From positions 2,922,501 to 2,986,500 of the forward strand of contig NZ_CP011509.1 in the NCBI RefSeq assembly GCF_001027285.1: a DNA stretch of 64,000 nt, in the 5' to 3' direction. Below, in pieces: positions 12,427 through 49,773 of this stretch; within the stretch, counting starts at the first letter, position 1, and every line of letters starts with the position of its first letter. The notes under the pieces were generated by a model. It was not told the origin of the DNA. It saw only the letters and a program-made list of their open reading frames with translations, and ran no database searches. This stretch comes from Archangium gephyra. Its GTDB lineage: Bacteria > Myxococcota > Myxococcia > Myxococcales > Myxococcaceae. The translations under genes and the position numbers were made by a program.

Positions 12427-12455
12427 AGACAGTTACTACACGGAAGGAATCCAAC

Positions 12456-12782: not shown

Positions 12783-12833
12783 GGACCGGACAGGTCCCCA
12801 CGCTTCTATTTCCCACCCTCAGCGAGTTCGAAC

Positions 12834-14081: not shown

Positions 14082-14088
14082 CCAGCAC

Positions 14089-18055: not shown

Positions 18056-18068
18056 AGGAGAGTGACAC

Positions 18069-19112: not shown

Positions 19113-19157
19113 AGACACCCTGTCAGCAGTGCGGTGGGTGGCGAAAGTGAGGAGATC

Positions 19158-19985: not shown

Positions 19986-20184
19986 ACCGACGCGGCCCAG
20001 CCGGGCCCGCAGGACTCAAGCACCCAGTGACTACTCGTCGTCGACTGGGTGTCCACGGAACTGGGACAGTCTCACGCGGCAGGAACGGGCGGAGCCTGCT
20101 CTGCCGCCGGCGCGGCTCGACAGGGTTGATTGCCGCGTCCAGCCGTAGGGATAAGGATTGGAACGGCGTCGAAGCGTGGAGTCG

Positions 20185-20445
20185 TTACTTGCCGGCCGCA
20201 GGTGCTTCCGCCGCCGCTGGTTTGTCAGCCGGCTTGCTCGGCCGGAGGATGCAGGCGACGGCGCCGTTGGTCAAAGCGGCCTGGTAACGCAGGCCGCAGT
20301 GGAGGGCCGCGAACATCGCCGGGAACTGCTCGTTCCCCCATTTGCTGGGCAAGAAGACGATTTTCTGGCCCGGTTCGCAGTTGTCCGCCTGGCGCCAGTT
20401 CGCGGTTTGGCAGATGACGTCCTGGTTGATGTCGGCCGCGGCCAT
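20185..20445 (-). CDS. Small cysteine-containing conserved hypothetical protein, N-terminus possibly decayed
   Basis: This 86-codon frame reads like real protein: DVICQTANWRQADNCEPGQK, then IVFLPSKWGNEQFP, CGLRYQAALTNGAVACI and an Ala/Pro/Lys tail. I recall short exported proteins with this pattern, of unknown function, in Xanthomonadales and related groups. They normally have a signal peptide. Here the frame upstream of ATG 20445 continues through LARCQQATANAQTPAAPG to a stop without a start codon or hydrophobic segment. The gene is therefore either shortened or broken. Function is unknown. Confidence 0.45.
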   Translation of the reverse strand: MAAADINQDVICQTANWRQADNCEPGQKIVFLPSKWGNEQFPAMFAALHCGLRYQAALTNGAVACILRPSKPADKPAAAEAPAAGK

Positions 20446-20695
20446 GCCCGGTGCCGCGGGCGTCTGCGCATTGGCGGTGGCCTGCTGGCAGCGCGCCAGC
20501 GCAGTGGTGGCGACTCCTCAGAAGGGCGTTCATGCGGATGCTGGAGCTCCTGTTTCCCCCTTGAGGAAACCGACTCAACAGAATCCAGCTCTATCGGCTC
20601 CCATGCAGGGTCGCCTGTGGGCTGAGGGCCCCTGGGCCTGTACCCCCGGGCATCGAAGTCCTAAGCTCGGGGCCTTCCCTGCGAAGGAGCGCTCC

Positions 20696-21916: not shown

Positions 21917-22073
21917 CCCCACGCTTGCGCAATGACCGCGGGGCGCACCTCCAGGTGGTCCTGACCTGCGAGGCCTGTGGCCGCCACGCCCCGGGGACGG
22001 ATCTGACGATCGACCGTGAGCAGGACCCTCCATCCACCACCGCCCCCGCGGCGAGAATCCGGAGTTCAACACC

Positions 22074-22130
22074 ATGAAGGTCATTCTCTTTGGCGCCACC
22101 GGCAACTATGTGCGGCTGACACATCAATGA
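22074..22130 (+). pseudogene. Truncated start of a Rossmann-fold NAD(P)-dependent epimerase/oxidoreductase
   Basis: The frame reads MKVILFGATGNYVRLTHQ and then stops. The first ten residues are the beta-alpha start of NAD(P)-binding epimerase-like proteins, with the GATG part of the glycine motif, and GGAG precedes the ATG by about eight bases. The homology ends abruptly, so only the ribosome binding site and start of a deleted gene survive. The rest of the gap from 21917 to 22342 shows no other supported feature. Confidence 0.5.
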
Positions 22131-22342
22131 GGGCCGTGGACCTCTCCTGGTGCCGCCGAATCCTTTGACACCAACACGGCGGCACACACGCCTCGTCACG
22201 TGGCTGGGTGAGTGGGCCCGCCCACCTGTTGCATGCCGACCACGAGCGACAACCGGAAGCGGTGTCAGACGGTTCTTGGAGCCTCCTGATTGTCCACGTC
22301 CGGATCTTCGGGCACGCACCTCCAGACTTGGCGTGGAGGCAT

Positions 22343-24211
22343 CTATCGCAAGGACTCCAGCGCGAGGCTCGCGTTCGTGTAGAGCATGGAGTAGTGCGCG
22401 TGCTCACGGCCCAGGCGATGCGATGACGTCGTCGTCGCCTGGTGGCGGAGGTGTTTTACCTGCTCCTCGGCGTGCTTTCTCAGATGGCGAAGTGCCGCGT
22501 CTCGGGTCTCCCGGGTCGCACGAGACAACAGCGATTTCGGAATCTCCACCGCCAGCAGGCGCTCCTCGCGCTTCTGCAGGAGCTTGATTCCCCTCGGGTC
22601 GCCGAAGAGGAGTCCGAGACCAAGCTCATCCAGGATCAAGTATCCCCTCTTGTTGGGAAGTTCCCCAACGGGAGGCAGAAGATCCTCCATCACCACGAGA
22701 GCCCCGTCCGGCGCCAGCAACTCTTCGATGTCACGAAAAACCGTCAGCCAGTTCTCTGGCTCGATTTCGTGGAGCACGTTGCTAAGGATGACGAGGTCGA
22801 ACTCCTGACCGCGTCTGGCCTGCAGTCGTGACATGCTGTCCCAGTAATAGTCCTCCACGGTCCCCGGCTGCTCCAGCGCCGCGATTCTCACCTGGCAGGC
22901 CTCCCGGATCTCGGAATCGGTGAACCTCGGTTCGTTGTAAGCGAAGTACTCGATCCGTCCCCGGAGGGACTGGCCCTCGGGCATGGAGAGGCGCTCGCGA
23001 AGCGCGCTCCCGAAGCGGCCCTTGCCCGCGGAGAAATCCAAGAGCCGGAGTTGTTGGCCGGACGAGAGCCGCTGGTGAAGCACGTCGATGAATTGTTCCT
23101 GCTGCTTGTCGCCCGTCTTTGGGTCCGCGACTCCAGCGGGCAGCACACACTGCGCCGCGAACTCCATGAAGGCGATCTCGTCCGCATCGGACAGGAAAGT
23201 GGAGAGGCGGTCCCTGCCGTCCCGTCCGCCCAGCAGTGACTCGACCACCGAGGTGACCTTGTTCCCCGCGAACTCGATTGCGCCGTCCTTGACGAAGTGC
23301 ACCGAATCCAACCCTCCCCAGGCCAACAAGGGGACGGAGTGGGTCGCTAGCCAGATCTGGCCATCCGGGCCTAGCACATCGTCCCGCAGCTTCGTGAGTG
23401 CCCGGATACAAGCATCGTGATGCAGGTGGCTCTCTGGCTCGTCGATCAATACGATGGCATTGGAGAGGTGCTCGCGCTGGCGATGAAGGCTGATCGCCCA
23501 CGTGAACAAGAGCCGCTCTCCCGTTGAAAGCTCGCTTGGCTCGAACCGTCGATTCCGGAAGGTTGGAAGGACTTCCGTTTCCTCTAACGTGAAGCCAATC
23601 TCTCCGTTCAGAAAGGCACTCAGGATGTTGTTGAAAACATTGGCATCCCGACGCTGTTGAACGACATCCTTCTGATTCATCGCTTGCGGATGATCAGCTT
23701 GGAAGATTGCCTGAGCGATTTGCGTGCAATAGGCATGCATTCCAATTAACGCCGAGTCAAATCCCACCTGCTTTGTGGACTTCGCGTAATCCCTGAGTTG
23801 GGTCGGGGACATTGACCGCGCGTTGATAATTGAATGGATATTTTGGGGATACGAGAGAAGGACTAGAGAGGGCTCCGTTCCCGCGGAGAAAATAGTGCCA
23901 CCAAGTTGCTCAAGCCAATACTCAGCGGTTCGAAGCGCTTCTTCATTACGCCTTATGGCTTCCTTTTTTTCTTCGTAGGGACCACTGTGTTCACCTCTCA
24001 GATAGGTCAACTGAGTTGCACTTCCCTGCGCTTTCAATTTCCAGTTCTCCCCTTTTTTCCCATGGATGTAGTGGATGAACTGGAGATACCTGGATTTACC
24101 AGAGCCATTGGGCCCGGCCAGGACGACGACCCTGCCGAGCCGCTTGAGCATTCCACCGCGAAGACCTCGTTCCTTCGCCTGCTCCTCGGGAAATAGGATT
24201 TGAGTGATCAT
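22343..24211 (-). CDS. ABC/RecF-like AAA ATPase fused to a SAM-dependent methyltransferase
   Basis: The 622-residue protein combines two enzymes. The N-terminal half is an AAA_21/OLD-like ATPase: Walker A GPNGSGKS (33-40), signature LSTGERLLF (228-236), Walker B VLIDEPE (254-260) with SHLHHD after it, and a switch His in LATHS (291). The C-terminal half is a class I methyltransferase: motif I LLDFSAGKGRFG (390-401), FDLVILSNVLHEIEPENW (471-488), and PDGALVVMEDLLPP (501-514). No TOPRIM nuclease motif is seen between them. The gene is lower in GC than its surroundings and is flanked by gene remnants. ATPases of this type are frequent in phage-defence and conflict systems, so a defence role is possible but unproven. 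The substrate of the methyltransferase is unknown. Confidence 0.8.
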   Translation of the reverse strand: MITQILFPEEQAKERGLRGGMLKRLGRVVVLAGPNGSGKSRYLQFIHYIHGKKGENWKLKAQGSATQLTYLRGEHSGPYEEKKEAIRRNEEALRTAEYWLEQLGGTIFSAGTEPSLVLLSYPQNIHSIINARSMSPTQLRDYAKSTKQVGFDSALIGMHAYCTQIAQAIFQADHPQAMNQKDVVQQRRDANVFNNILSAFLNGEIGFTLEETEVLPTFRNRRFEPSELSTGERLLFTWAISLHRQREHLSNAIVLIDEPESHLHHDACIRALTKLRDDVLGPDGQIWLATHSVPLLAWGGLDSVHFVKDGAIEFAGNKVTSVVESLLGGRDGRDRLSTFLSDADEIAFMEFAAQCVLPAGVADPKTGDKQQEQFIDVLHQRLSSGQQLRLLDFSAGKGRFGSALRERLSMPEGQSLRGRIEYFAYNEPRFTDSEIREACQVRIAALEQPGTVEDYYWDSMSRLQARRGQEFDLVILSNVLHEIEPENWLTVFRDIEELLAPDGALVVMEDLLPPVGELPNKRGYLILDELGLGLLFGDPRGIKLLQKREERLLAVEIPKSLLSRATRETRDAALRHLRKHAEEQVKHLRHQATTTSSHRLGREHAHYSMLYTNASLALESLR

Positions 24212-35035: not shown

Positions 35036-35827
35036 ATGGCAACGCTGAAGGACAAGGTCATCATCGTCACCGGCGCGAGCTCGGGCATTGGCTGGACCAC
35101 GGCCCTCACGCTCGCGGCCGAGGGCGCCCGGGTCGTCGCCAGCGCCCGCCGCGAGGCCCGGGGCCAGGAGCTCCTCGCCCTCATCCGGGAGCGCGGCGGC
35201 GAGGCCACCTGGGTCACCGCCGACATGCAGTCCGAGCGCCAGGTCGAGGCACTCGTCCAGTCCGCCGTCTCCACCTACGGCCGGCTCGATGGGGCCTTCA
35301 ACAACGCCGGCAGCAGCCTCACCCGGCCGCTCCTGGAGATGACCACCGCGGACTACGACGCCGTCATGAACACCAACCTGCGCGGCGTCTTCTGGTGCAT
35401 GAAGTACCAGCTCCAGGCCATGCTCGCGGGCGGCGGAGGCTCCATCGTCAACTGTGCCTCCGTGAGTGCCTCGCGCGCCCTGCCCGGGCTCTCCGCCTAC
35501 AGCGCTTCCAAGGCGGGGCTCGTCGCCCTCACCCGGAGCGCCGCCGTCGAGCTCGCGCAGAAGGGCATCCGCGTCAACGCGGTGAGCCCCGGCGTCGTCG
35601 AGTCGGAGATGGCCACCGAGGGCTGGCGCCTCCACGAGCGCATGGGGCGCGCCTTCGCCGCCTCGCTCCACCCGATGAACCGCGTCGGTACTCCCGAGGA
35701 GGTGGCCTCCCTCGTCGCCTTCCTCCTCGGCGACAAGGCCTCCTTCATCACCGGCCAGGACATCGCCGTGGATGGGGGCTTCAGCGCCGCCAGTGTCGCC
35801 GCCACCCTCATGGCCCGCGGCCGCTGA
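35036..35827 (+). CDS. Short-chain dehydrogenase/reductase
   Basis: The 263-residue protein starts at ATG 35036, close behind the dipeptidase stop. It shows the classical SDR signature: cofactor motif TGASSGIG near residues 12-19, NNAG near 86, catalytic Ser region CASVSAS, and YSASK with Tyr and Lys. The C-terminal FITGQDIAVDGGF is standard. Arg in ASARRE near the second strand suggests NADPH preference (weak). The substrate is unknown. A rho-independent terminator follows at 35842, so this gene is separate from the FAAL cluster downstream. Confidence 0.9.
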   Translation: MATLKDKVIIVTGASSGIGWTTALTLAAEGARVVASARREARGQELLALIRERGGEATWVTADMQSERQVEALVQSAVSTYGRLDGAFNNAGSSLTRPLLEMTTADYDAVMNTNLRGVFWCMKYQLQAMLAGGGGSIVNCASVSASRALPGLSAYSASKAGLVALTRSAAVELAQKGIRVNAVSPGVVESEMATEGWRLHERMGRAFAASLHPMNRVGTPEEVASLVAFLLGDKASFITGQDIAVDGGFSAASVAATLMARGR

Positions 35828-36140: not shown

Positions 36141-38171
36141 GTGGCCTCCGCATCCATCGAAGGCGTTGGATTCCGCAATCTCATCGAGTTGGTGCGGGAG
36201 CGCGCCGAGCGCCACCCGGACCGGCTCGCGTATGTCTTCCTGGAGGATGGAGAGACGGAGTCGCAGGCGCTGACGTTCGGTGAGCTGGAGCAGCGCGTGC
36301 GCGCGGTGGCGGCCCGGCTGCAGGCGCTGGGCGCGGCGGATCAACGCGCGTTGTTGCTGTACCAGCCGGGCCTGGACTTCATCGTCGCGTTCCTCGGCTG
36401 TGTGTGCGCGCGGGTGGTGGCGGTGCCGGCGTATCCGCCCCGCAACAACCAGAACCTCCACCGGCTGCGGACCGTCATCGAGGACGCGGGCGCGGGTTGG
36501 GTGCTCACCACGTCCTCGTTGATGTCCAACCTGGGCACCCAGTTCCAGCGCGTGCCCGAGCTGGGCTCGCTGCGCTGGCTGTCCACGGACGACGTCCCCA
36601 CGCAGGAGCGGGACGCCTGGAAGACGCCGGAGGTGAGCGGGGACACGCTCGCGTTCCTCCAGTACACCTCGGGCTCCACGGGCGCGCCCAAGGGCGTGAT
36701 GGTGTCGCACGGGAACGTGCTGCACAACGAGCGGATGATCGAGCTGACCTTCGGGCACAGCGAGCGCACCCTCTTCGCCGGGTGGCTGCCGCTGTTCCAC
36801 GACATGGGGCTCATCGGCAACGTGCTGCAGCCGCTCTACCTGGGCATCAAGTCCGTGCTGATGCCGCCCGCGGCGTTCATCCAGAAGCCCGCGCGGTGGC
36901 TGCACGCCATCTCCCGCTACCGGGCCACGACGAGCGGCGGGCCCAACTTCGCGTATGACCTGTGCGCCCGCAAGGTGTCTCCCGAGCAGCGGGTGGGGTT
37001 GGACTTGAGCAGCTGGGAGGTCGCCTTCAACGGCGCCGAGCCCGTGCGCGCCAGCACGTTCGTGCGCTTCACGGAGACCTTCAAGGACCACGGCCTGAAG
37101 CCCTCGGCGTTCTACCCGTGCTACGGCATGGCGGAGACCACGCTGGTCGTCTCCGGCGGCTCCGCGGCGAAACCCATCATCCGCAACGTGGCGGCGGTGG
37201 CGCTGGAGGAGGGGCGGGTGGTGGAGGTGGAGGGCGGGCCCGCGAGCGACGGCACACGCGCGCTCGTGAGCTGTGGCCGGAGCTGGCTGGAGAAGGTGCG
37301 GGTGGTGGACCCCACCACGCGCACGGTGTGCCCCGAGGACCGGGTGGGCGAGGTCTGGGTCTCCAGTGGCAGCGTGGCCCAGGGCTATTGGAACCGGCCG
37401 GAGCAGACGGAGGAGTCCTTCCGGGCGCGCCTGGCGGGCACCGGCGAGGGCCCGTTCCTGCGCACCGGGGACCTGGGGTTCTTCCGGGGCGAGGAGCTCG
37501 TCATCACCGGCCGCCTGAAGGACGTCATCATCATCCGCGGCCGCAACCACTATCCGCAGGACATCGAGCAGACGGTGGAGGAGTGCCATCCGGCGCTCAA
37601 GGCCAGCGGCGGGGCCGCGTTCTCCATCGAGGTGGAGGACGAGGAGCGGCTCGTCGTCATCCAGGAGGTCGAGCGCAGCTACCTGCGCAACCTGGATGTG
37701 GCGGACGTGACGGCCAGCATCCGGCAGGCCGTGGCGGAGCAGCACGAGCTCCACGTCCATGCCGTGGTGCTCATCAAGACGAGCAGCATCCTCAAGACGT
37801 CCAGCGGGAAGATTCAGCGCCAGGCCTGCCGCAAGGCCTTCCTCGAGGGGACGCTGAGCGTCGTGGGGCAGTGGGTGGAGAACCTCCACGCCGAGCGGAG
37901 CGCGGCCCCGGCGGTGCAGCAGGGTGTGTACACCGAGGAGGCCATCCAGAGCTGGCTGCTCGGCCGCATGGCCCAGTACCTCGGCATCGCGGCGGAGGAG
38001 ATCGACGTGAAGGATCCCTTCGCCCGCTACGGCCTGGACTCGGCGGTGGCGGTGAGCCTCACGGGCGAGCTGGCCGGATGGTTGGGCCGGGAGTTCGAGC
38101 CCACCCTGTTCTGGGAGCACCCCAGCGCGGAAGTGCTGGCCCGTCACCTGGTCAATGAACTGAAGCAGTGA
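36141..38171 (+). CDS. Fatty acyl-AMP ligase fused to an acyl carrier protein
   Basis: The 676-residue protein starts at GTG 36141. The N-terminal part is a FAAL: YTSGSTGAPKG near residue 175, GWLPLFHDMGLIGNVLQPLY, ISRYRATTSGGPNFAYDLC and YGMAETT are hallmark segments. FAALs form acyl-adenylates from fatty acids and pass them to a carrier protein rather than to CoA. The C-terminal 80 residues are that carrier, with FARYGLDSAVAVSL carrying the phosphopantetheine Ser634. It loads the starter fatty acid for the megasynthase at 39548, matching the AL-ACP start of mycosubtilin and microginin pathways. Chain length cannot be read from the sequence. Confidence 0.92.
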   Translation: MASASIEGVGFRNLIELVRERAERHPDRLAYVFLEDGETESQALTFGELEQRVRAVAARLQALGAADQRALLLYQPGLDFIVAFLGCVCARVVAVPAYPPRNNQNLHRLRTVIEDAGAGWVLTTSSLMSNLGTQFQRVPELGSLRWLSTDDVPTQERDAWKTPEVSGDTLAFLQYTSGSTGAPKGVMVSHGNVLHNERMIELTFGHSERTLFAGWLPLFHDMGLIGNVLQPLYLGIKSVLMPPAAFIQKPARWLHAISRYRATTSGGPNFAYDLCARKVSPEQRVGLDLSSWEVAFNGAEPVRASTFVRFTETFKDHGLKPSAFYPCYGMAETTLVVSGGSAAKPIIRNVAAVALEEGRVVEVEGGPASDGTRALVSCGRSWLEKVRVVDPTTRTVCPEDRVGEVWVSSGSVAQGYWNRPEQTEESFRARLAGTGEGPFLRTGDLGFFRGEELVITGRLKDVIIIRGRNHYPQDIEQTVEECHPALKASGGAAFSIEVEDEERLVVIQEVERSYLRNLDVADVTASIRQAVAEQHELHVHAVVLIKTSSILKTSSGKIQRQACRKAFLEGTLSVVGQWVENLHAERSAAPAVQQGVYTEEAIQSWLLGRMAQYLGIAAEEIDVKDPFARYGLDSAVAVSLTGELAGWLGREFEPTLFWEHPSAEVLARHLVNELKQ

Positions 38172-38218
38172 GCCCTGACGCGGCCGGCCGCGAGGCCAGG
38201 CCGTGAGGAGGTACAGCC

Positions 38219-39493
38219 GTGGAGCTGTTGGACCAGCCCGCCGTGAACGGTGGAGCCGGGAGCGGTGTGCCGCGCGCTCCCGTCAAATTCAACCTCTTCG
38301 ACCCCGCCTTCCACGCGGACCCGTACGAGGTCTACGCCCGCCTCCGCGAGGAGGATCCGGTCCACCGGACCGTCATGGGCGCCTGGGTCATCACCCGCTA
38401 CGCGGATGTGAAGACGCTGCTGCGGGACAACACCTTCGGTGTCTTCGACATCCCGACGCGCATCGAGCGCAAGAGCCAGTTCCTCGAGAAGAAGAACATG
38501 GGGGAGCTGCGCACGCTCGCCCAGGCCATGCGCCGCTGGCTCATGCTGTGCGATCCGCCCGACCACACGCGGCTGCGCAGCCTGGTCAACCGCTCCTTCA
38601 CCCCGGGGGCCGTCGAGTCCCTGCGCCCGCGTGTGCAGGAGATGGTGGACCGGCTGCTGGCCCGGGTGCGCCATACCGGCAGGATGGACATCGTCAACGA
38701 CCTGGCCTGCCCGCTGGCGGTGACGATGATCGCCAGCATGCTCGGGGTGCCCGAGGAGGCACACGCCTCGGTGACGCGCTGGGCCGATGGCCTCTCGCGC
38801 GTGTTGGATCCCCTGCGCTCGCTCGAGCAGTACGCCGAGATGAACAACGTGGCGCAGGAGTTCCTCGCCTACTTCCGGGAGCTCTTCGCCGAGCGCCGGC
38901 GCCACCCGCGCGAGGACCTCATCAGCAGCCTCATCGCCGTCACGGACCAGGGCGACAAGCTCACCGAGGACGAGATGCTCTCGGTGTGCATGCTGCTGTT
39001 CATCGCGGGCGAGAAGACGACGGTGAACCTCATCGGCAATGGCACGCTCGCGCTGCTCAAGAACCGGGGCGAGATGGAGCGGCTGCGGCAGGATCCGTCC
39101 CTCATCCGCGGCGCCATCGACGAGATGCTCCGCTACGACAGCCCGGTGCAGCTCAACACGCGCGTGCCCAAGAAGGACGTCACCCTGCACGGGAAGACGA
39201 TTCCGGCGGGGGATTTGATCTACTTCTCGCTGGGCTCGGCCAACCGCGACCCCACCCAGTTCCCCGACCCGGACCGGTTCGACATCACGCGCCGCGAGAA
39301 GGGCCACCTCGCCTTCTCCGGCGGCATCCACTACTGCCTGGGCGCGGCGCTGGCCCTCATCGAGGGGCAGGTCGCCTTCAGCACGCTCGTGCGCGAGTTC
39401 CCCGACCTGGAGCTCGTGCCCGGGGAGATCGATTGGCAGAAGGAAATCATCTTCCGCGGTCCGCAGACGCTCCCCGTCACGTTCAGCCCCTGA
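38219..39493 (+). CDS. Cytochrome P450 of the lipopeptide cluster
   Basis: The 424-residue protein starts at GTG 38219 after GAGGAG. It has I-helix LLFIAGEKTTVNLIGNG with the AGxxTT motif, ExxR in DEMLRY, and haem loop FSGGIHYCLGAAL with ligand C373. CDPPDHTRLRSLVNRSFTP is typical of soluble bacterial P450s. It lies 47 bases after the FAAL-ACP and 54 bases before the megasynthase, so it almost certainly belongs to the pathway. It may hydroxylate or desaturate the carrier-bound fatty acyl chain or the finished product. No dedicated redox partner is in the cluster. Confidence 0.92.
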   Translation: MELLDQPAVNGGAGSGVPRAPVKFNLFDPAFHADPYEVYARLREEDPVHRTVMGAWVITRYADVKTLLRDNTFGVFDIPTRIERKSQFLEKKNMGELRTLAQAMRRWLMLCDPPDHTRLRSLVNRSFTPGAVESLRPRVQEMVDRLLARVRHTGRMDIVNDLACPLAVTMIASMLGVPEEAHASVTRWADGLSRVLDPLRSLEQYAEMNNVAQEFLAYFRELFAERRRHPREDLISSLIAVTDQGDKLTEDEMLSVCMLLFIAGEKTTVNLIGNGTLALLKNRGEMERLRQDPSLIRGAIDEMLRYDSPVQLNTRVPKKDVTLHGKTIPAGDLIYFSLGSANRDPTQFPDPDRFDITRREKGHLAFSGGIHYCLGAALALIEGQVAFSTLVREFPDLELVPGEIDWQKEIIFRGPQTLPVTFSP

Positions 39494-39547
39494 CGGGCCC
39501 GTGAGCCGGGGGGCTCCACCTTCACAGCCAGCGCCACCGACGAGACC

Positions 39548-42500
39548 ATGATGAACCGCGAGCCCATAGCCATCATCGGCCTGGGATGCCGTTTCCCGGG
39601 CGCGAGAGATCCCCGGGCCTTCTGGAAGCTGCTCCGCGACGGCGTGGATGCGATCTCCCAGGTGCCCCCCGACCGGTGGGACATCGAGGCCTTCTACGAT
39701 CCGGACCCCTCGGCGGAGGGGAAGATGAGCACCCGCTGGGGCGGGTTCCTGGAGCAGGTGGAGCAGTTCGATCCCCAGTTCTTCGGAATCGCCCCGCGCG
39801 AGGTGACGTCCATGGATCCCCAGCAGCGGTTGCTGCTGGAGGTGACGTGGGAGGCGCTCGAGGACGCGGGCCATGCACCGGAGCGCCTGGCGGGCTCGAA
39901 GACAGGCGTCTTCGTGGGGATGTCCAGCTACGACTACTACACGCTGTTGTGCAGGAACACGCGCAACATCGATGCGCACGTGGGGACGGGCAACACCAAC
40001 TGCATCGCCGCCAACCGCATCTCGTACCTGCTCGACTTCCAGGGGCCCAGCCTGGTGGTGGACACGGCGTGCTCCTCCTCACTCGTGGCCGTGCACCTGG
40101 CGTGCAAGAGCCTGTGGAGCGGGGATGCGGCCCTGGCCGTCGCGGGCGGCGTGCAGCTCGTGCTGTCGCCCTGGGTGACGGTAGGGTACTCGAAGTCGGG
40201 CTTCATGGCGCCGGATGGGCGGTGCAAGGCCTTCGACGCACAGGCCAACGGCTATGTGCGCAGCGAGGGCGCCGGCATCGTCGTCCTCAAGCCCCTGTCC
40301 AAGGCGCTGGCGGAGGGAGATCGCATCTACGCCCTCATCCGGGGCGGGGCGGTCAACCAGGACGGGCGCAGCAACGGGCTCACCGCGCCCAACCCCGCGG
40401 CGCAGGAAGCGGTGCTGCGGCAGGCCTACGAGGACGCCCGGGTCCCTGCCTCCCAGGTGCAGTACATCGAAGCGCACGGCACGGGGACGAAGCTGGGAGA
40501 CCCCATCGAGGTGAAGTCGCTCGCCGCGGTGGTGGGGCAGGGGCGTGCCGAGGGCGACGTGTGCGCGCTGGGCTCGGTGAAGACGAACATCGGCCACCTG
40601 GAGGCGGCGGCGGGCATCGCGGGCCTCATCAAGGTGGCCCTGTCGCTCAACCACCGGCAGCTCCCGCCGAGCCTGCACTTCAAGACGCCCAACCCGTACA
40701 TCCACTTCGACAAGATTCCGCTGCGCGTCCAGCAGTCGCTGGGGCCCTGGCCCGAGGTGAAGGGCCCCGTGCTGGCCGGGGTGAGCTCGTTCGGCTTCGG
40801 CGGCACCAATGCCCACCTGGTGCTGGAGGGCGCCCCGGCGGTGGCCGTGGACGAGGAGCTGGACGCCGAGCGGCCCCGGCACCTGCTCACCGTGAGCGCC
40901 AGGAGCGAGGCCGCGCTGCGCGCCCTGGCGGGCCGCTACCAGGAGCACCTCGGGGAGCATCCGGAGCAGGCGCTCGGAGACCTCTGCTACAGCGCCAACA
41001 CGGGGCGCTCGGGCTTCCCCCACCGGCTGGCGGTGGTGGCCGGCTCCCCGGCGGAGCTTCGCGAGCGGCTGGGCGGCTTCGCCAGCGGACAGGCGGTGCC
41101 CGGCACGGCCTACGCCCAGGTGAACCGCCGCAAGCGTCCGAAGGTGGCCTTCCTGTTCACCGGCCAGGGCGCGCAATACACCGGCATGGGGCGCCAGCTC
41201 TACGAGACGCAGCCCACCTTCCGGGACGCGCTCGACCGGTGCGACAAGATTCTTCGCCCCCTGCTGGGCCAGCGCCTGCTGAAGGTGCTCTACCCGGAGC
41301 CGGGAGAGCGCTCGCCCCTGGACGAGACGGCCTACACGCAGCCGGCCCTGTTCGCGCTGGAGTACGCGCTCGCCGGGCTGTGGATGTCCTGGGGCGTGGA
41401 GCCCGCGGCGGTGCTGGGACACAGCGTGGGCGAGCTCGCCGCGGCCTGTGTCGCGGGCGTGTTCCGGCTGGAGGACGGCTTGCGGCTCGTCGCCGAGCGG
41501 GCGCGGCTGATGCAGGCCCTCCCGCGGGACGGGGCCATGGCGGCCCTCCTCGCCCCCGCGTCCCGGGTGGCGGCCGCGCTGGAGCCGTACGCCGGGGTAC
41601 TCGACATCGCGGCCTTCAACGGGCCCGAGAGCACCGTCATCTCCGGCCGCAAGGAGGCGCTCGACGCCGTCGTCGCCACGCTGGAGGCCGAGGGCGTGCG
41701 CAGCCAGCCGCTCCGCGTCTCCCATGCGTTCCACTCTCCCCTGATGGAGCCGATGCTCGACGGGCTGGAGCGGGCGGCGGCGGAGCTGCGCACCCAGGCG
41801 CCGCGGGTGCCCTTCATCTCCAACGTGACGGGCGAGGCGCTGGCCGTGGGACAGGTGCCCGATGCCGCCTACTGGCGCCAACACACGCGCGCGCCCGTGC
41901 GCTTCCTGGAGGGCATGCGCGCCCTGCACGCGCAAGGCTGTGAGCTGTTCCTGGAGATCGGCCCGAAGCCCCTCCTGACGCACCTGGGCTCGCGGTGTCT
42001 GCCCGAGGTCCAGGCCGGCTGGCTGCCCTCGCTGACGGAGAAGCGGGGGGAGTGGGACGTGATGCTCGACACCCTGTCCGCGCTGTACGTGGGCGGGGTG
42101 GAGGTGGACTGGAAGGGGTTCGACCGGGACTACCCGCGCCAGCGCGTGTCCCTGCCCACCTATCCCTTCGAGCGCAAGCACTACTGGTTCAAGGAAGAGG
42201 CACCCCAGGTGATTGAACAAGTGTCAGCAACGGCCGTGTCCAAGCCCCAGGCGGCGGAGCCCGCGAAGCCCAAGCGGCTGGAGTCCATCGTGGCCGCGGT
42301 GCGCAAGATGGTGGCGCAGCTGCTCAAGGCCGCGCCCTCCGAGGTCGACACCCAGGCTTCCTTCCTGGAGATGGGCGCCGACTCCATCTCGCTCATCGAG
42401 GCCATCCGGCTCATCGAGACCGACTACAAGCTCAAGCTCTCGGTGCGCCAGCTCTTCGAGGAGCTGACCACCATCGAGGCACTGGCGGCCCACATCGAGC

Positions 42501-44926
42501 GCCACCTCCCGCCGGAGCAGTCCCTGCCCCAGGCCCCGGCTCCGGCCGCCGCCGCCGTGCCCCCTCCGGCCGCCGCGCCCGTGCAGGCCGCCGCCTGCTC
42601 CGTGCCCCGCGCGCCCGTGTCGAATGGTGTGAAGGCCGCGCCGGCCGTCAACGGGGCCACGGGCGCCAACGTCCTGCGGCCCGCCAACGGTGCCTCGGGT
42701 GCCCAGGTCTTCCAGCCCGCGCCCGCCCCCCGGCCCCAGCCCGTGCTCCCGGCCGCCCCCGAGGGCTCGCTCGAGCGGCTCTTGTCGCAGCAGCTGGAGA
42801 TCGTCTCCAAGCAACTCGACCTGCTCCGGGAGCGGGGCGCGCCGCCGCTCCCGCTCGTGGCGCCCACCCCCGTGGAGGTGGAGGTCCCCGCGCCTCCGCC
42901 TGAAGCCGCCGCACTGCCCGTCCCTCCGCCCGCGCCGGCTCCGCGTCCCGCCGCGCCGTCCGTGCATGCGCCCGTGGCCGTGTCCGGTGATGCCGGCAGC
43001 GAGCTGAACCAGCGGCAGCAGCAGCACCTGCGGACGTTCATGGAGCGGTTCGCCCGGCGGACGCGGGGCTCGAAGGAGTGGGCCCAGAAGCACCGGCCCG
43101 CGTTGGCGGACAACCGCGCCCTGGCCGGCTTCCGCATGCCCATCAAGGAGATCAGCTATCCCATCGTGGGCTCGCGCTACGAGGGCTCGCGCATCTGGGA
43201 TGTCGATGGCAATGAGTACGTCGACACGGCGATGGGCTTCGGGACGCACCTGTTCGGCCACGGGGCGCCGTTCATCCAGCAGGCCATCGCGAGTCAGGTG
43301 GAGCGCGGGTTCGGCGTGGGCCCCCAGCCGGAGCGCGCGGGACAGCTCGCCGAGCTGTTCGTGGAACTGACGGGCAACGAGCGCGTGACGTTCTGCCAGT
43401 CGGGCACGGAGTCCGTCATGACGGCGCTGCGCCTGGCGCGCACCGCGACCGGGCGGCAGAAGATCGCCCTCTTCAAGGGCTCGTTCCATGGCCACTTCGA
43501 TGGGGTGCTCGCACGGGGCAACGAGCAGGAGGCGGTGCCCGTGGCTCCGGGCGTCTCCCAGGGAGCGGTCCGGGACGTGGTGGTGCTCGACTACGGCGAG
43601 CAGAGCGCCATCGACTACCTGAAGCAGCACGTGCACGAGCTGGCCGCCGTGCTGGTGGAGCCAGTGCAGAGCCGCCGCCCGGAGCTGCAGCCGCGCGACT
43701 TCCTGCGGCAGGTGCGCGAGCTCACCCTGGCGTCGGGGACGGCGCTCATCTTCGATGAGATCATCACGGGCTTCCGGATCCACCCGGGAGGCGCGCAGGC
43801 CCACTTCGGCATCCAGGCGGACCTCGCGACGTACGGGAAGATTCCTGGCGGGGGCCTGCCGCTGGCGGCGGTGGCGGGCAAGCGGCGCTTCATGGACGGC
43901 ATCGACGGCGGCCAGTGGCGCTACGGGGACGACTCGTACCCGGAGGCCGAGCGGACGTTCTTCGCGGGCACCTTCAACAAGCCGCCCCTCTCGCTGGCGA
44001 CGGCGCTGGCGGTGCTCCAGCACCTGAAGGAGCAGGGGCCCCGGCTCCAGGAGGAGCTGAACGCCCGCACGGCCCGCCTGGCCGCGACGCTCAACGCCTT
44101 CTTCGAGGCGCAGCGCGTGCCGATGCAGGTCGTGCACTTCGGCTCGCTCTACCGCTTCGTGCTCAAGGGCAACCTGGACCTGTTCTTCTTCCACATGGTC
44201 GAGCGGGGCGTCTACGTGTGGGAGGGGCGCACGTGCTTCCTCTCCACGGCGCACAGCGAGGCGGACGTCGAGTTCATCATCCAGACGGTGAAGGACAGCG
44301 TGGCGGAGCTGCGCCAGGGAGGCTTCCTGCCCGGGCTTCCCCCCGAGGCCCCGCCTCCTGGTGGTGGCGGTGGCGCCTCGAAGGGCGAGCCGCGCGCCGC
44401 CAGTGCGCCGCCCCCCAGTGCTCCCGTCCAGGCCCGTGCGAACAACGGCGTCCAGGCGCCAGCGCAGCGGACGGAGTTATGGCGGCGGCTCAAGAGCACG
44501 TCCTCGGAGCGGACCGTCACGCGGGAGGGCACGCGCGACGGGGCGATGGACTTCAGCCTCTACTTCTTCGGCAAGTACGAGGCCGCGTACCGCGAAGACA
44601 AGTATGACCTGCTGCTGGAGAGCACGCGTTACGCCGACGCGCACGGCTTCTCCGCGGTCTGGGTGCCCGAGCGGCACTTCCACCCCTTCGGGGGTTCTCG
44701 CCCAACCCGTCCGTCGTCTGCGCGGCGCTGGCCCGGGAGACGAAGCACCTGCAGCTGCGCGCCGGCAGCGTCGTCGTGCCGCTGCATCACCCGCTGCGCG
44801 TGGTGGAGGAGTGGGCCGTGGTGGACAACCTGTCCAAGGGACGGGTGGGGCTGTCGTTCGCCTCCGGCTGGCACCCGGATGACTTCGTGTTCGCGCCGGA
44901 CTCCTTCGGCAACCACCGCGAGCTGA
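39548..44926 (+). CDS. Hybrid PKS-NRPS, 5' part: KS-AT-ACP-aminotransferase-start of monooxygenase (frameshifted)
   Basis: The frame starts at ATG 39548. Domains in order are: ketosynthase (DTACSSS with Cys175, EAHGTGT, NIGHLEAAAG); acyltransferase (GHSVGE with Ser626; HAFHSPLM indicates malonyl-CoA); ACP (GADSISL, Ser946); a Pro/Ala linker; and a GSA-type PLP aminotransferase (Lys1431 in ATYGKIPGGGLPL). There is no KR, DH or ER, so the beta-keto group is left for the aminotransferase, as in mycosubtilin MycA. A luciferase-like FMN monooxygenase begins near 44545 (SAVWVPERHFHPFGG) and loses frame in the G run 44690-44694. The last 77 codons to 44926 are out-of-frame read-through. The natural protein continues at 44695. 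Confidence 0.9.
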   Translation: MMNREPIAIIGLGCRFPGARDPRAFWKLLRDGVDAISQVPPDRWDIEAFYDPDPSAEGKMSTRWGGFLEQVEQFDPQFFGIAPREVTSMDPQQRLLLEVTWEALEDAGHAPERLAGSKTGVFVGMSSYDYYTLLCRNTRNIDAHVGTGNTNCIAANRISYLLDFQGPSLVVDTACSSSLVAVHLACKSLWSGDAALAVAGGVQLVLSPWVTVGYSKSGFMAPDGRCKAFDAQANGYVRSEGAGIVVLKPLSKALAEGDRIYALIRGGAVNQDGRSNGLTAPNPAAQEAVLRQAYEDARVPASQVQYIEAHGTGTKLGDPIEVKSLAAVVGQGRAEGDVCALGSVKTNIGHLEAAAGIAGLIKVALSLNHRQLPPSLHFKTPNPYIHFDKIPLRVQQSLGPWPEVKGPVLAGVSSFGFGGTNAHLVLEGAPAVAVDEELDAERPRHLLTVSARSEAALRALAGRYQEHLGEHPEQALGDLCYSANTGRSGFPHRLAVVAGSPAELRERLGGFASGQAVPGTAYAQVNRRKRPKVAFLFTGQGAQYTGMGRQLYETQPTFRDALDRCDKILRPLLGQRLLKVLYPEPGERSPLDETAYTQPALFALEYALAGLWMSWGVEPAAVLGHSVGELAAACVAGVFRLEDGLRLVAERARLMQALPRDGAMAALLAPASRVAAALEPYAGVLDIAAFNGPESTVISGRKEALDAVVATLEAEGVRSQPLRVSHAFHSPLMEPMLDGLERAAAELRTQAPRVPFISNVTGEALAVGQVPDAAYWRQHTRAPVRFLEGMRALHAQGCELFLEIGPKPLLTHLGSRCLPEVQAGWLPSLTEKRGEWDVMLDTLSALYVGGVEVDWKGFDRDYPRQRVSLPTYPFERKHYWFKEEAPQVIEQVSATAVSKPQAAEPAKPKRLESIVAAVRKMVAQLLKAAPSEVDTQASFLEMGADSISLIEAIRLIETDYKLKLSVRQLFEELTTIEALAAHIERHLPPEQSLPQAPAPAAAAVPPPAAAPVQAAACSVPRAPVSNGVKAAPAVNGATGANVLRPANGASGAQVFQPAPAPRPQPVLPAAPEGSLERLLSQQLEIVSKQLDLLRERGAPPLPLVAPTPVEVEVPAPPPEAAALPVPPPAPAPRPAAPSVHAPVAVSGDAGSELNQRQQQHLRTFMERFARRTRGSKEWAQKHRPALADNRALAGFRMPIKEISYPIVGSRYEGSRIWDVDGNEYVDTAMGFGTHLFGHGAPFIQQAIASQVERGFGVGPQPERAGQLAELFVELTGNERVTFCQSGTESVMTALRLARTATGRQKIALFKGSFHGHFDGVLARGNEQEAVPVAPGVSQGAVRDVVVLDYGEQSAIDYLKQHVHELAAVLVEPVQSRRPELQPRDFLRQVRELTLASGTALIFDEIITGFRIHPGGAQAHFGIQADLATYGKIPGGGLPLAAVAGKRRFMDGIDGGQWRYGDDSYPEAERTFFAGTFNKPPLSLATALAVLQHLKEQGPRLQEELNARTARLAATLNAFFEAQRVPMQVVHFGSLYRFVLKGNLDLFFFHMVERGVYVWEGRTCFLSTAHSEADVEFIIQTVKDSVAELRQGGFLPGLPPEAPPPGGGGGASKGEPRAASAPPPSAPVQARANNGVQAPAQRTELWRRLKSTSSERTVTREGTRDGAMDFSLYFFGKYEAAYREDKYDLLLESTRYADAHGFSAVWVPERHFHPFGGSRPTRPSSARRWPGRRSTCSCAPAASSCRCITRCAWWRSGPWWTTCPRDGWGCRSPPAGTRMTSCSRRTPSATTAS
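44690..44694 (+). other. One-base deletion in a G run breaking the megasynthase
   Basis: The run has five G residues; six would join HFHPFGG to FSPNPSV in one frame through the monooxygenase domain. Both flanking sequences are conserved and open, so the original gene clearly spanned the site. It may be a sequencing or assembly error, a real mutation, or slippage-based phase variation. Confidence 0.85.
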
Positions 44927-47900
44927 TGTTCGAGGGCATCGAGCAGATCCGCCACCTGTGGCGCGGCGGCTCCCTCCGGGCGCGCAATGGCGGCCAGAAG
45001 GAGATCGACGTCAGCAGCTTCCCGCTGCCCAGGCAGGCGGAGCTCCCCTTCTGGGTGACGATCGTCAACAACCCGGACACGTACATCCGCTCGGGACAGA
45101 TTGGCGCCAACGTGCTGACCAACCTGATGGGCCAGTCGCTCGAGGACCTCGAGCGCAACATCGCCCTCTACCGGCAGGCGCTGCGGGACAACGGGCATGA
45201 TCCGGCCTCCGGCAAGGTGACGTGCCTGATGCACACCTTCGTCGGGGAGGACCTGGAGACCGTGCGGCGCACGGCCCGGCAGCCCTTCTGCGACTACCTG
45301 GCGGCCCACGTCTCGCTCTTCCAGAACCTGGCGAAGAGCCAGGGCCTGAGCGTCAACGTGGACACGCTGACCCCGGACGACAAGCAATACATGTTGTCCA
45401 AGGCCTATGACCGGTACGTGCAGACGAGCGCGCTGATCGGCACGCCGGACACGTGCGCGAAGATCCTCGAGAACCTGAGGGCCATCGGCGTCGACGAGGT
45501 GGCCTGCTTCCTGGACTTCGGCGTGGAGGCCCGGTCCGTGATGGAGGCCATGCCCTCGCTGGTGAAGCTCAAGGACCGGTTCCGCCGGGACGGGGGCGGT
45601 GGCCCCGCTCCCAAGCCGGGACGGCGCGAGGACACGGCGGAGCCCTCCGGGGATGTCACGCTCGCGCTGACCGAGTCCCAGCAGGAGTTCCTCATCGTCG
45701 CGCAGATGACGGCGGATGACAGCTCCATGGGCGGGCACCAGGCCATCGCCCTGAAGCTCACGGGGCCGCTGCGGATGGAGGCGTTACAGACCGCCGTCCA
45801 GCAGGTGGTGGACCGGCACGAGGCGCTGCGCACCACCATCAGCGCGGAGGGGGACAGCCAGCGCGTCCACCGCTCCGTGAAGGTGGACGTGCCGCTGGTG
45901 GACTTCTCGCACGTGGAGGAGGGCGCCCGCGAGCGGGAGGTGCTCCGGTGGTTCGACGCGCAGAGCGAGAGCGGCTTCGACCTGGTGAACGGGCCGCTGT
46001 TCCGCGCGCAGGTGCTCCGGCTGCACCCCGAGCTGCACGTGCTGAGCCTGGCGACGCACCACATCTTCTGCGACGGGCAGTCCATGGCCGTCATCGTCGA
46101 GGAGCTCGCGGCGCTCTACTCGGCGGCGTGCCAGGGCGAGCGCCGGGAGCTGCCCGCGCCCATGCAGTTCCGCCACTTCGTCGAGCGGCAGAACCAGCAG
46201 CTCCAGGGGGAGGCCCTGGCCGGGCACGAGGCCTACTGGCTCGGGCGGTTCTCCGGGCAGATTCCGGTGTTGCAGCTCCCCTTCGACCGGCCGCGCCCGC
46301 CGGTCAAGTCGTTCCAGGCGAACCGGCTGACGGACAGGATTGGCGCGGAGCTGGCCTCGGCGCTGAAGAAGGTGGGCCAGCGCTACGGTGCCACGCCCTT
46401 CATGACGCTCTTCGCCGCGTACGTGTGCCTGCTGCACCGGATGTCCGGGCAGGGGGACATCATCGTCGGTGTCCCGTCCTCGGGCCGCACCGTGGAGGGC
46501 AGCGCGGGCATGGTGGGCCATTGCGCCAACCTGCTGCCCATCCGGACGAACGTCAGCGGCGAGCTGCGCTTCTCGGAGCAGCTGGCGGCCGTGAAGAGCG
46601 TGCTGCTCGACGGCTACGAGCACCAGGCGTACCGCTTCGCGACCCTCCTGGAGAAGCTGCGCATCCCGAGGGACCCGAGTGTGTCGCCCCTCGTCACGGT
46701 GGCCTTCAACCTGGATCGCCCCGTCTCCGCGCCCCGGATGTCCGGGCTGGAGACGGACTGGCTCCCCCGGCCCATCAGCTTCGCGGTGGCCGAGCTGGGC
46801 TTGAGCATCGTCGAGCTGCGCGGTGAGCTGAGCCTCGACTGGGACTACAACACGGACCTGTTCGACGCCGCGACGATCCGCCGGACGATGGGCCACTTCC
46901 GCCGCCTGCTGGAGGGCATCGCCGCGAACCCGGAGCAGCGGCTGGGCGAGCTGCCCCTGCTCTCCGAGGAGGAGCGCGGGTGCTTCGCGGAGTGGAACCG
47001 CACCACGGCTCCGGGCCACGGGCTGGCCTGTGTGCATCACCTGTTCGAGGCGCAGGTGCGGCGCACGCCCGGCGCGCCGGCGCTGAGCTTCGGCGGGGAG
47101 ACGCTGACCTATGGCGAGTTGAACGCGCGGGCCAATCAGGTCGCGCACCACCTGCGCTCGCTCGGGGTGGGGCGGGAGTCGCTCGTGGGCATCTGCGTCG
47201 AGCGCTCCGTGGAGATGGTCGTCGGGCTGCTGGGCATCCTCAAGTCCGGCGCGGCCTATGTGCCGTTGGATCCCTCCTTCCCCGCGGAGCGGCTGGCCTA
47301 CATGGTCGAGCACTCGCGGCTGTCCCTGCTGCTGGCGCAGGAGGGGACGGCGGGCGTGTTGCCCCGGAGCGGGGCGCGGGTGCTCCGGCTGGACGCGGAG
47401 CGCGAGGCCCTGGCGCGGCAGCCCACCTCGGACGTGGAGGGGGGCGCCACCGCAGAGGAGCTGGCGTATGTGATGTACACCTCGGGCTCGACGGGGACGC
47501 CCAAGGGAATCCAGGTGCTGCACGGGGCGGTGACCAACCTGCTCGAGTCGATGAGGGACCTGTTCTCTCCGTCGGAGCGGGACGTGCTGCTGGCGGTGAC
47601 GACGATGTCGTTCGACATCGCGGCGCTCGAGCTGTACCTGCCCTTGATGGTGGGCGCGCGGCTGGTGGTGGCGGACCGCGAGACGGTGTCGGACGGTGAG
47701 CGGTTGAAGCAGGAGTTGGAGCGCGTGCGCCCCACGCTGATGCAGGCGACGCCCGCGACGTGGCGGATGCTCATCGAGACCGGGTGGCGGGGTGACCCGG
47801 CGCTGACGCTCCTGTGCGGCGGCGAGGCGCTGCGCCGGGAGCTGGCCGAGCAGCTGCTCCCGCGGGGCAAGCAGGTGTGGAACCTGTACGGCCCCACGGA

Positions 47901-49773
47901 GACGACGATCTGGTCCTCCGCGTACCGGGTGGAGCCGGGGGCGCGGGGCGCGGGGCGCGAGGAGGCCGCGGAGCCGATTGGCCGGCCGATCGCGAACACG
48001 CGGCTGTACGTGCTGAATCCGCGGCTCCAGCAGGTGCCCGTGGGGGTCACCGGAGAGCTCTACATCGGTGGCCTGGGCGTGGCGCGGGGCTACCTGGGCC
48101 AGCCCGCGCTGACGACGGAGAAGTTCCTCCCGGATGCGTTCAGCGGCCAGCCGGGTGCGCGCCTCTACAAGACGGGGGACCTGGCCCGCTCCCTGCCGGA
48201 TGGCGCCATCGAGTACCTCGGCCGCACGGACTTCCAGGTGAAGATTCGCGGGTTCCGCGTCGAGCTGGGCGCCATCGAGGCCGCCCTGGCACAGCACCCG
48301 GCCGTCGCCAACGTCGCGGTCATCGCGCGCGAGGTGGCGCCCGGGGACACGCGCCTCTTCGGCTACGTCGTCTTCCAGCGTGAGCAGTCCGTGCCCACCG
48401 AGGCGCTCCACCGGTTCCTCAAGGACAAGCTGCCGGGCTACATGATTCCCGGCTCGCTCACCGCGCTGGAGTCACTGCCGTTGACGCCCAACGGCAAGGT
48501 GGACCGCAACGCGCTGAAGGCCCTGGCCGTGGGCCGGCCGGAGGAGCGGGTCCACGTGGCTCCCCGCAACCCGCTGGAGGCGGAGCTGGCGCGGCTGTGG
48601 GAGGAGGTCCTGGACGTCAGGCCCGTCGGAGTGACGGACAACTTCTTCCACCTCGGGGGCAACTCGCTGCTCGGCGTGCGCCTCATGACGAGGATCCGCC
48701 GCAACCTCGGGCAGGAGGTGCCGCTGTCGCTCCTCATCGAGGAGCCGACCATCCTCCACCTGGCCCAGTTCATCTACGAGAAGAGCCTCTGGACGCAGGC
48801 CACGGCGGCGCCGGGGAAGCCGTCACTCGTGAAGGTGCGTCCGGAGGGCAAGCGCCCCCCGTTGTTCTTCGCGGCGCAGCTTGGCGGCATCTACCCGTCC
48901 AACGTGGTGGTGGGCCTGCTGGAGATGGCGCGGCGGTTGGAGCCGGAGCAGCCCTTCTACGGCCTGCAGGCGCCCGCGCTCGCGCCGGAGCTGGTGGAGG
49001 CGGGGACGCGCGGCGGTGTGCTCTCCCTGGAGGGGTGGCGCTACGACTGGAAGAACTTCGAGCGCGTGGTGGCCGACTGTGTCCAGGCCATCCAGGAGCT
49101 CCAGCCCGAGGGGCCGTACTACCTGGGAGGCTTCTGCTCCGGCAGCCTGCTCGTGTTCGAGCTCGCCCGGCACCTGCTGGCGAAGAATCAGCGGGTCGCC
49201 CGGCTCGTGCTGTTGGATCCGCCCATCGGTGGCGATGCCGTCCCGCCCGGGCCGGCGCGGTATGACCCCGAGCTGGCGAACCTGGTGTGGTTCATCGGCC
49301 GGGACGTGGGTTGGGAGGCGGGATGGGATTTGAACGAGCTCTACCGGGAGCTGGAGCCCCTCGGCGCCGAGGAGCGCTGGACGTTGGCCCTGCGCAAGCT
49401 GAGGGAAGCCCGCGCGGTTCCGGCCAGCACGGATGAGAATGATCTGCGGCGGCTCTTCGGGGCGAAGCGGAACAACGAGGAGGTGATGAGCCGGATCCTC
49501 GAGCACTACCAGCCACCGAGCTACCCGCACCCGGTCACCATCCTGATCTCCGACCACACGCGCGAGGACTACACGGAGGAGGCACTCCAGGCGGCACTGG
49601 CGCGCGTGCGCCAGCACCTCACGGGGCAGCTGGAGGTCCATGTCGTCCCCGGAGACCACGGCAGCCTGTTCCACCCGCCGAATGTCCAGGTGCTGGTGGA
49701 GCACGTCAGCGGGTGTCTGGCCGGGAGCGGTCAGCCGGGCAGCGCGCCCCGGTTGCGCGTGGCGGGGACCTGA
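44695..49773 (+). CDS. Hybrid PKS-NRPS, 3' part: rest of monooxygenase-C-A-PCP-TE
   Basis: The frame resumes at 44695 with FSPNPSVVCAALARE, exactly continuing the monooxygenase. That domain ends near 45620 (GRVGLSFASGWHPDDF is inside). A condensation domain follows (HHIFCDG at 46056-46076), then adenylation (YTSGSTGTPKG, LYGPTETTIW, NGKVDR). The specificity residues I read are D-I-L-Q-L-G-L-I-W-K, the known glycine code. PCP has GGNSLL (Ser at 48664-48666). The thioesterase carries GGFCSGS with Cys at 49135-49137 where Ser is usual, and a His in GDHGSLFH. The module would add glycine to the 3-amino-2-hydroxyacyl chain and release it. No ribosome binding site serves an internal start, so without frame restoration this part is not made. 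Confidence 0.9.
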   Translation, partial: FSPNPSVVCAALARETKHLQLRAGSVVVPLHHPLRVVEEWAVVDNLSKGRVGLSFASGWHPDDFVFAPDSFGNHRELMFEGIEQIRHLWRGGSLRARNGGQKEIDVSSFPLPRQAELPFWVTIVNNPDTYIRSGQIGANVLTNLMGQSLEDLERNIALYRQALRDNGHDPASGKVTCLMHTFVGEDLETVRRTARQPFCDYLAAHVSLFQNLAKSQGLSVNVDTLTPDDKQYMLSKAYDRYVQTSALIGTPDTCAKILENLRAIGVDEVACFLDFGVEARSVMEAMPSLVKLKDRFRRDGGGGPAPKPGRREDTAEPSGDVTLALTESQQEFLIVAQMTADDSSMGGHQAIALKLTGPLRMEALQTAVQQVVDRHEALRTTISAEGDSQRVHRSVKVDVPLVDFSHVEEGAREREVLRWFDAQSESGFDLVNGPLFRAQVLRLHPELHVLSLATHHIFCDGQSMAVIVEELAALYSAACQGERRELPAPMQFRHFVERQNQQLQGEALAGHEAYWLGRFSGQIPVLQLPFDRPRPPVKSFQANRLTDRIGAELASALKKVGQRYGATPFMTLFAAYVCLLHRMSGQGDIIVGVPSSGRTVEGSAGMVGHCANLLPIRTNVSGELRFSEQLAAVKSVLLDGYEHQAYRFATLLEKLRIPRDPSVSPLVTVAFNLDRPVSAPRMSGLETDWLPRPISFAVAELGLSIVELRGELSLDWDYNTDLFDAATIRRTMGHFRRLLEGIAANPEQRLGELPLLSEEERGCFAEWNRTTAPGHGLACVHHLFEAQVRRTPGAPALSFGGETLTYGELNARANQVAHHLRSLGVGRESLVGICVERSVEMVVGLLGILKSGAAYVPLDPSFPAERLAYMVEHSRLSLLLAQEGTAGVLPRSGARVLRLDAEREALARQPTSDVEGGATAEELAYVMYTSGSTGTPKGIQVLHGAVTNLLESMRDLFSPSERDVLLAVTTMSFDIAALELYLPLMVGARLVVADRETVSDGERLKQELERVRPTLMQATPATWRMLIETGWRGDPALTLLCGGEALRRELAEQLLPRGKQVWNLYGPTETTIWSSAYRVEPGARGAGREEAAEPIGRPIANTRLYVLNPRLQQVPVGVTGELYIGGLGVARGYLGQPALTTEKFLPDAFSGQPGARLYKTGDLARSLPDGAIEYLGRTDFQVKIRGFRVELGAIEAALAQHPAVANVAVIAREVAPGDTRLFGYVVFQREQSVPTEALHRFLKDKLPGYMIPGSLTALESLPLTPNGKVDRNALKALAVGRPEERVHVAPRNPLEAELARLWEEVLDVRPVGVTDNFFHLGGNSLLGVRLMTRIRRNLGQEVPLSLLIEEPTILHLAQFIYEKSLWTQATAAPGKPSLVKVRPEGKRPPLFFAAQLGGIYPSNVVVGLLEMARRLEPEQPFYGLQAPALAPELVEAGTRGGVLSLEGWRYDWKNFERVVADCVQAIQELQPEGPYYLGGFCSGSLLVFELARHLLAKNQRVARLVLLDPPIGGDAVPPGPARYDPELANLVWFIGRDVGWEAGWDLNELYRELEPLGAEERWTLALRKLREARAVPASTDENDLRRLFGAKRNNEEVMSRILEHYQPPSYPHPVTILISDHTREDYTEEALQAALARVRQHLTGQLEVHVVPGDHGSLFHPPNVQVLVEHVSGCLAGSGQPGSAPRLRVAGT

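Follow-up and report, generated by a model that had tools for sequence, protein, structure and literature searches.

A compact gene cluster in the window, the whole 64,000 nucleotide stretch of Archangium gephyra DNA analysed here, probably encodes a lipid-glycine assembly line of four genes. In brief, a fatty acid would be loaded by an FAAL, oxidized by a P450, extended by one malonate, aminated at the beta and hydroxylated at the alpha position, joined to glycine and released by a Cys-type TE. Judged by sequence comparison with its relatives, the conserved unit is made up of four genes in the order SDR, FAAL/ACP, P450 and PKS/NRPS. The core chemistry is ordinary and belongs to a known family; the compact orphan line is real and conserved. 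As read from its domains, it is set apart from the starts of the puwainaphycin and microginin lines by the stop after one residue and by an unusual release domain. The cluster has the following features.

35036-35827, + strand: SDR (short-chain dehydrogenase/reductase); Pfam match, GASSGIG and YSASK motifs
36141-37910, + strand: FAAL (fatty acyl-AMP ligase); PF00501, 77-80% identity in five close orthologues
37941-38171, + strand: acyl carrier domain fused to the FAAL; PF00550, GLDS motif
38219-39493, + strand: cytochrome P450; PF00067, heme Cys motif FSGGIHYCLG, FAAL-linked clade in the tree
39548-40837, + strand: KS (ketosynthase); profile match, TACSSS motif
41138-42187, + strand: AT (acyltransferase); profile match, GHSVGE and HAFH motifs
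42278-42517, + strand: acyl carrier domain of the PKS; profile match (PP-binding)
43028-44347, + strand: AMT (class-III aminotransferase); PF00202, PLP lysine motif YGK
44543-44694, + strand: MOX (luciferase-like monooxygenase), first part, in the PKS ORF frame
44690-44694, + strand: run of five G with a change of reading frame; orthologues uninterrupted at the site
44695-45585, + strand: MOX, remainder, in the next frame; TIGR04020 above cut-off
45646-47010, + strand: C (condensation) domain; profile match, HHIFCDG motif
47026-48540, + strand: A (adenylation) domain; profile match, pocket code DILQLGLIWK, predicted glycine
48571-48786, + strand: PCP (peptidyl carrier) domain; profile match, GGNSL motif
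48811-49773, + strand: TE (thioesterase); GFCSG with the Cys codon at 49135-49137, Asp in LLDPP, His in GDHGS

The domains were called by Pfam and NCBIfam profile searches of the window translations. Together with the motifs, these confirmed the order given in the initial annotation, FAAL-ACP, P450 and then KS-AT-ACP-AMT-MOX-C-A-PCP-TE, and its claim of one NRPS module, a single C-A-PCP ahead of the TE. The AT carries HAFH, which we take to be a malonyl type motif. The FAAL models of NCBIfam were matched with scores under their cut-offs, and the P450 reaches no NCBIfam cut-off; its closest PDB matches are PksS, CYP267B1 and the biotin-pathway P450. The lysine motif YGK is present in the window translation and is kept in the orthologues. 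The MOX downstream of the frame change (residues 28-321 of the second frame) scores 432.5 bits against TIGR04020, above the cut-off of 244.45. The MOX score, the FAAL-ACP start and the YGK motif support the puwainaphycin/microginin-type logic that had been proposed; the KS-AT-ACP-AMT-MOX-NRPS order is present as well, but split in the window by the frame change.

The KS to TE part is split within the MOX, a feature absent from the initial annotation. It is made up of one frame at 39548-44926 and a second, overlapping the first, at about 44611-49773; PF00296 is matched by the PKS frame over profile positions 14-55 and by the following frame over 23-314. Both homologous MOX parts join at the G run; past it, the PKS ORF has no homology and reaches a stop at 44926. 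In five close orthologues (L041-L045, from two other genera of the same family) KS-AT-ACP-AMT-MOX and the NRPS module form a single protein of 3455-3565 aa in one open frame, so in the window copy, which has the same order, the break stems from either an error of the assembly or a recent mutation. With five single frames, programmed frameshifting can also be rejected as a general feature of the family. It should be noted that the line works as drawn in the sequenced strain only if the MOX break is an assembly error.

The other reading, to which we give somewhat less than an even chance, is a recently broken gene: the MOX would be truncated, C-A-PCP-TE out of frame, and nothing or a shunt product made. 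The break stands in the given sequence, and other very long frames of the same assembly with MOX or TE matches are unbroken up to 12,241 aa, which indicates that frame errors are infrequent there and makes a real mutation quite possible. However, the break lies in a homopolymer, a usual site of assembly errors. The pN/pS ratios downstream of the break are 0.41-0.43 between the window and L043, against 0.29-0.37 in the intact pair L041-L043, but between the window and L041 they are 0.27-0.32 (MOX, C, A and TE), no higher than in the intact pair. The rise against L043 is not tied to the break, because the ratios are raised upstream as well (FAAL 0.41 against 0.33, P450 0.34 against 0.25, AMT 0.29 against 0.19). 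A very recent mutation would give no pN/pS signal in either direction.

Glycine, the amino acid named in the initial annotation, is well supported by the A domain sequence. The pocket code, read by eye with GrsA numbering, is identical in the window and the five close orthologues. The nearest PDB chains for the pocket region are 5u89 (DhbF), which agrees at all 7 of the pocket positions that are visible, and 4zxh (AB3403), which agrees at 5 of the 7. Both are given with Gly as substrate in the available part of PMC11253843, where AB3403 appears in the table as AB3404. As a word, the pocket code was not found in the literature searched.

The release domain has a GxCxG nucleophile motif, with Cys instead of Ser, in all six copies (the window and five orthologues). 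The genome has 21 TE-family matches; 18 could be read by motif, and 17 of these have Ser, the cluster TE alone having Cys. A search for this TE type (E ≤ 1e-25) found it in at least 6 of 195 Myxococcota genomes. Its best sequence match in the PDB is AB3403 (1.6e-14), in which Cys is aligned with Cys and the Asp of LLDPP with the canonical Asp; a second Asp (ISDHT/ISDQT) lies near a later strand. AB3403 was also the best structural match of the predicted TE model (Z 19.2, rmsd 4.7 over 264 residues), tied with the NocB TE at Z 18.6. This match is supporting only, as the model is middling (mean pLDDT 68.2, pTM 0.68, 6 sequences). The TE chains of ObiF and SulM were absent among the best 50 structural matches listed, which is no evidence against kinship.

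In AB3403 (4zxh/4zxi, Acinetobacter) the cluster has a counterpart for its termination, C-A(Gly)-PCP-TE with a Cys in the nucleophile position (GWCFG) and the canonical Asp. Unlike the cluster, the AB3403 protein has no PKS, AMT or MOX, and TE identity is 21%. We know of no product of AB3403.

The Cys-type TE may release a free acid, or it may close a small ring. As a cyclase, it would let the beta-amine or the alpha-hydroxyl attack the glycyl thioester; instead of a linear acid, the product would be a lipid with a seven-membered diazepanedione or a six-membered morpholinedione ring. To our knowledge no such ring lipid has been described. We hold the cyclase reading only tentatively and as the less probable outcome. 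The conserved GxCxG motif and its singularity among the 18 readable TEs of the genome speak for it, as do ObiF and SulM, in which GxCxG or Cys TEs close beta-lactone or beta-lactam rings (PMC6668435, PMC11298585, available sections). In the same sections, however, the acting Asp of ObiF and SulM sits on the later strand, whereas the cluster TE has an Asp at the canonical EntF/AB3403 place, and its best sequence and structure match, AB3403, is called uncharacterized in the available text of PMC6668435.

We suggest the following pathway for the lipid-glycine line, with the FAAL, malonate, AMT and MOX steps modelled on puwainaphycin (PMC4219810, available sections). A fatty acid would be activated by the FAAL and loaded on the fused ACP, where the acyl chain would be oxidized by the P450. 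KS-AT would add one malonate, and the beta-ketone would be left in place because there is no KR. The AMT would then convert the ketone to a beta-amine, the MOX would hydroxylate the alpha carbon, and the C domain would couple the chain with PCP-bound glycine ahead of release by the TE. The SDR would probably reduce or adjust the function made by the P450. The AMT, MOX and P450 reactions are inferred from their families, and the regiochemistry of AMT and MOX is assigned by analogy. Action of the P450 on the acyl-ACP is suggested by its place and by the biotin-pathway P450, which acts on acyl-ACP, among the closest PDB chains. The P450 site, the role of the SDR, the outcome of TE release, the chain length and the biological use are guesses.

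Because of the P450, the upstream SDR and the Cys-TE, the product may be more than the plain 3-amino-2-hydroxyacyl-glycine acid first proposed. That the product would inhibit aminopeptidases is a guess from the headgroup. A quite different role for the MOX, oxidation of glycine to give a primary amide, would find a precedent in myxothiazol, where glycine oxidation by a monooxygenase is proposed for MtaG, and the line does have glycine as last residue and a luciferase-like monooxygenase. This is very improbable from the position of the MOX, which stands between AMT and C and not inside the A domain, and which sits among the AMT-fused MOX domains in a tree without an MtaG row. Alpha-hydroxylation is the function we retain for it.

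The SDR, which the initial annotation does not mention, belongs to the unit because all five close orthologues have it, with 73-80% identity, at the corresponding position directly upstream of the FAAL. Its ORF is open from 34880, homology begins near 35036, and in the PDB it matches SDRs and 3-oxoacyl-ACP reductases. We compared 22 neighbouring ORFs, picked by codon-position GC, with the flanks of the orthologues, 16-17 kb on the upstream and 9-19.5 kb on the downstream side (E ≤ 1e-8). The SDR was the only one of these window neighbours that is kept; no transporter, regulator or resistance gene among them is kept beside the orthologues. The remaining matches are weak, 29-40%, and comprise P450s matching the P450 of the cluster, a kinase and other SDRs.

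Just upstream of the SDR, ORF 32968-35028 matches membrane dipeptidases (M19). Self-resistance via a neighbouring peptidase was considered and rejected, as this ORF has no match (E ≤ 1e-8) beside the orthologues. Elsewhere in the window, 11176-15543 holds consecutive genes for a pyridine-nucleotide reductase, a P450 and an MFS transporter, and a further P450 lies at 20342-21916; in the whole genome there are 56 matches to the cluster P450, itself included. The region 16000-24000 has a lower GC (0.56-0.67) and is possibly acquired DNA. On its minus strand, ORF 22343-24211 joins AAA-type ATPase and methyltransferase matches, with a lower third-position GC of 0.71.

AMTs were collected from 102 loci, 41 of them with a MOX fused behind. 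Five other genomes of the same genus had no cluster match among the candidates scored, in most cases 11 per genome (AMT E ≤ 1e-90 in 147 genomes, TE E ≤ 1e-25 in 195 Myxococcota genomes). In the AMT tree (FastTree, 101 rows, SH-like support only, duplicate L094 of L046 dropped) the window, the five orthologues and a line from Hyalangium versicolor (L046) group together with support 99. The next set, of 10 rows and again with support 99, adds Nostoc linckia, Brasilonema and Rhizonema and is the smallest supported set reaching outside myxobacteria. Other myxobacterial AMTs and those of Microcystis (L098/L143) fall outside it. The AMT phylogeny proposed in the initial annotation therefore does not place microginin proper as the closest kin; outside myxobacteria the nearest are the three cyanobacteria just named. 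The MOX tree has the same core of seven (support 97), and beyond it two cyanobacteria and one verrucomicrobium with support 82, weakly resolved.

In the P450 tree, the FAAL-linked P450s of seven Archangiaceae-type and five Nostoc loci are united in a single clade (98/98) that excludes 14 other P450s of the genome. Sampling in this tree is limited, as every row came from a similarity search with the window P450; one of the Nostoc rows stands for a P450 in two pieces, of which the longer was used. By these trees, both AMT and P450 fall with cyanobacterial sequences of the Nostoc type and the MOX does so more weakly, and the FAAL-ACP/P450/KS loading cassette is common to both phyla, probably by transfer. 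We speculate further, with low expectation, that a cassette moved between cyanobacteria and Archangiaceae feeds a short AMT-MOX line, in which ring closure on glycine by the Cys-TE would yield a small lactam or lactone and with it an undescribed class of alkyl diazepanediones or morpholinediones with a function made by the P450 and SDR.

The Hyalangium line shares FAAL-ACP, P450, KS-AT-ACP-AMT-MOX-C-A-PCP and a hydrolase-type release domain, in a single frame. It differs in an extra ACP, another A-domain code and a Ser-type release motif (GHSRAG), and no orthologous SDR is found beside it. In five Nostoc loci (plasmid loci L174 and L175, and L129, L150 and L097) a P450 from the FAAL-linked clade and a related KS, with 66-71% identity, stand behind FAAL-ACP. 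Unlike in the cluster, no AMT or MOX was found in L174, while L175, L150 and L129 have an AMT without MOX; L097 has AMT-MOX, followed by several C domains. L174 (Nostoc plasmid pNLP2) and L175 (Nostoc sp. MS1 plasmid pNSMS102) encode FAAL-ACP, P450, PKS, a cyclisation-like C, A, PCP and TE, with an MFS transporter gene adjoining; in L175 the PKS comes with the AMT. Their A domains, of another code than in the cluster, stand behind the cyclisation-like C domain (read by eye), and their products are possibly orphan thiazoline lipids.

Among characterized systems, puwainaphycin has the FAAL and ACP start (PuwC/D), a non-reducing PKS module, AMT-MOX-NRPS and the 3-amino-2-hydroxyacyl logic in common with the cluster. 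PuwE is a single protein with PKS, AMT, MOX and one NRPS module, and a 3-amino-2-hydroxyacyl unit is part of the lipopeptides; the model itself was predicted from sequence and linked to a product that is known (PMC4219810, available sections). An aminotransferase-monooxygenase pair is likewise tied to the 3-amino-2-hydroxy motif in floridanemamide (PMC13252402, a preprint, in part). Puwainaphycin is however a cyclic lipopeptide, its line has an additional PKS module that methylates and reduces and a first module for Val, and the available text of PMC4219810 mentions no P450 or reductase at its start; the cluster has both, and stops after one glycine with a Cys-TE. Microginin differs in being a linear pentapeptide (PMC3999816, PMC6930480, both in part), and the Microcystis AMT lies elsewhere in the tree. 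The FAAL and the KS-AT-ACP-AMT-MOX order are nevertheless shared with the Microcystis locus L098, presumably that of a microginin producer. In cystomanamides, myxobacterial lipopeptides with a 3-amino fatty acid, the 3-amino group originates from an AMT. According to the available sections of PMC9581180, these compounds, from Cystobacter fuscus, have a fatty acid without alpha-hydroxyl and five NRPS modules. Section 19 of that paper states that six PKS-NRPS clusters of C. fuscus match no characterized lipopeptide.

We found neither a record nor a described product of the cluster in the literature searched, which left most subscription papers outside, and the statement is limited to that literature; the initial annotation likewise knew of no described myxobacterial compound of this exact type. 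The available sections of three papers on myxobacterial genomes (PMC12224551, PMC10435759, PMC6616573) do not mention puwainaphycin or microginin. The compact line, four genes with one PKS and one NRPS module kept in three genera, is an easy target for heterologous expression. Its product would show how a Cys-TE acts on a glycyl thioester bearing a free beta-amine and an alpha-hydroxyl, and the cluster documents an FAAL-P450 loading cassette common to cyanobacteria and myxobacteria.

In eight of the 40 distinct AMT-MOX loci (the window, L041-L046 and L053) the gene itself closes with a TE-like domain, which in the window lies beyond the break; seven of the eight have this domain after a single C-A-PCP. 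The remaining loci continue with C or KS, leave the contig, or are unclassified. L053 (genome G058) is a second kind of myxobacterial AMT-MOX line, a single frame of 4117 aa with the order KS-AT-ACP-AMT-MOX-C-PCP-C-A-PCP-TE, the second C being placed by inference from a gap. Its AMT and MOX group with those of Pectobacterium betavasculorum (L120).
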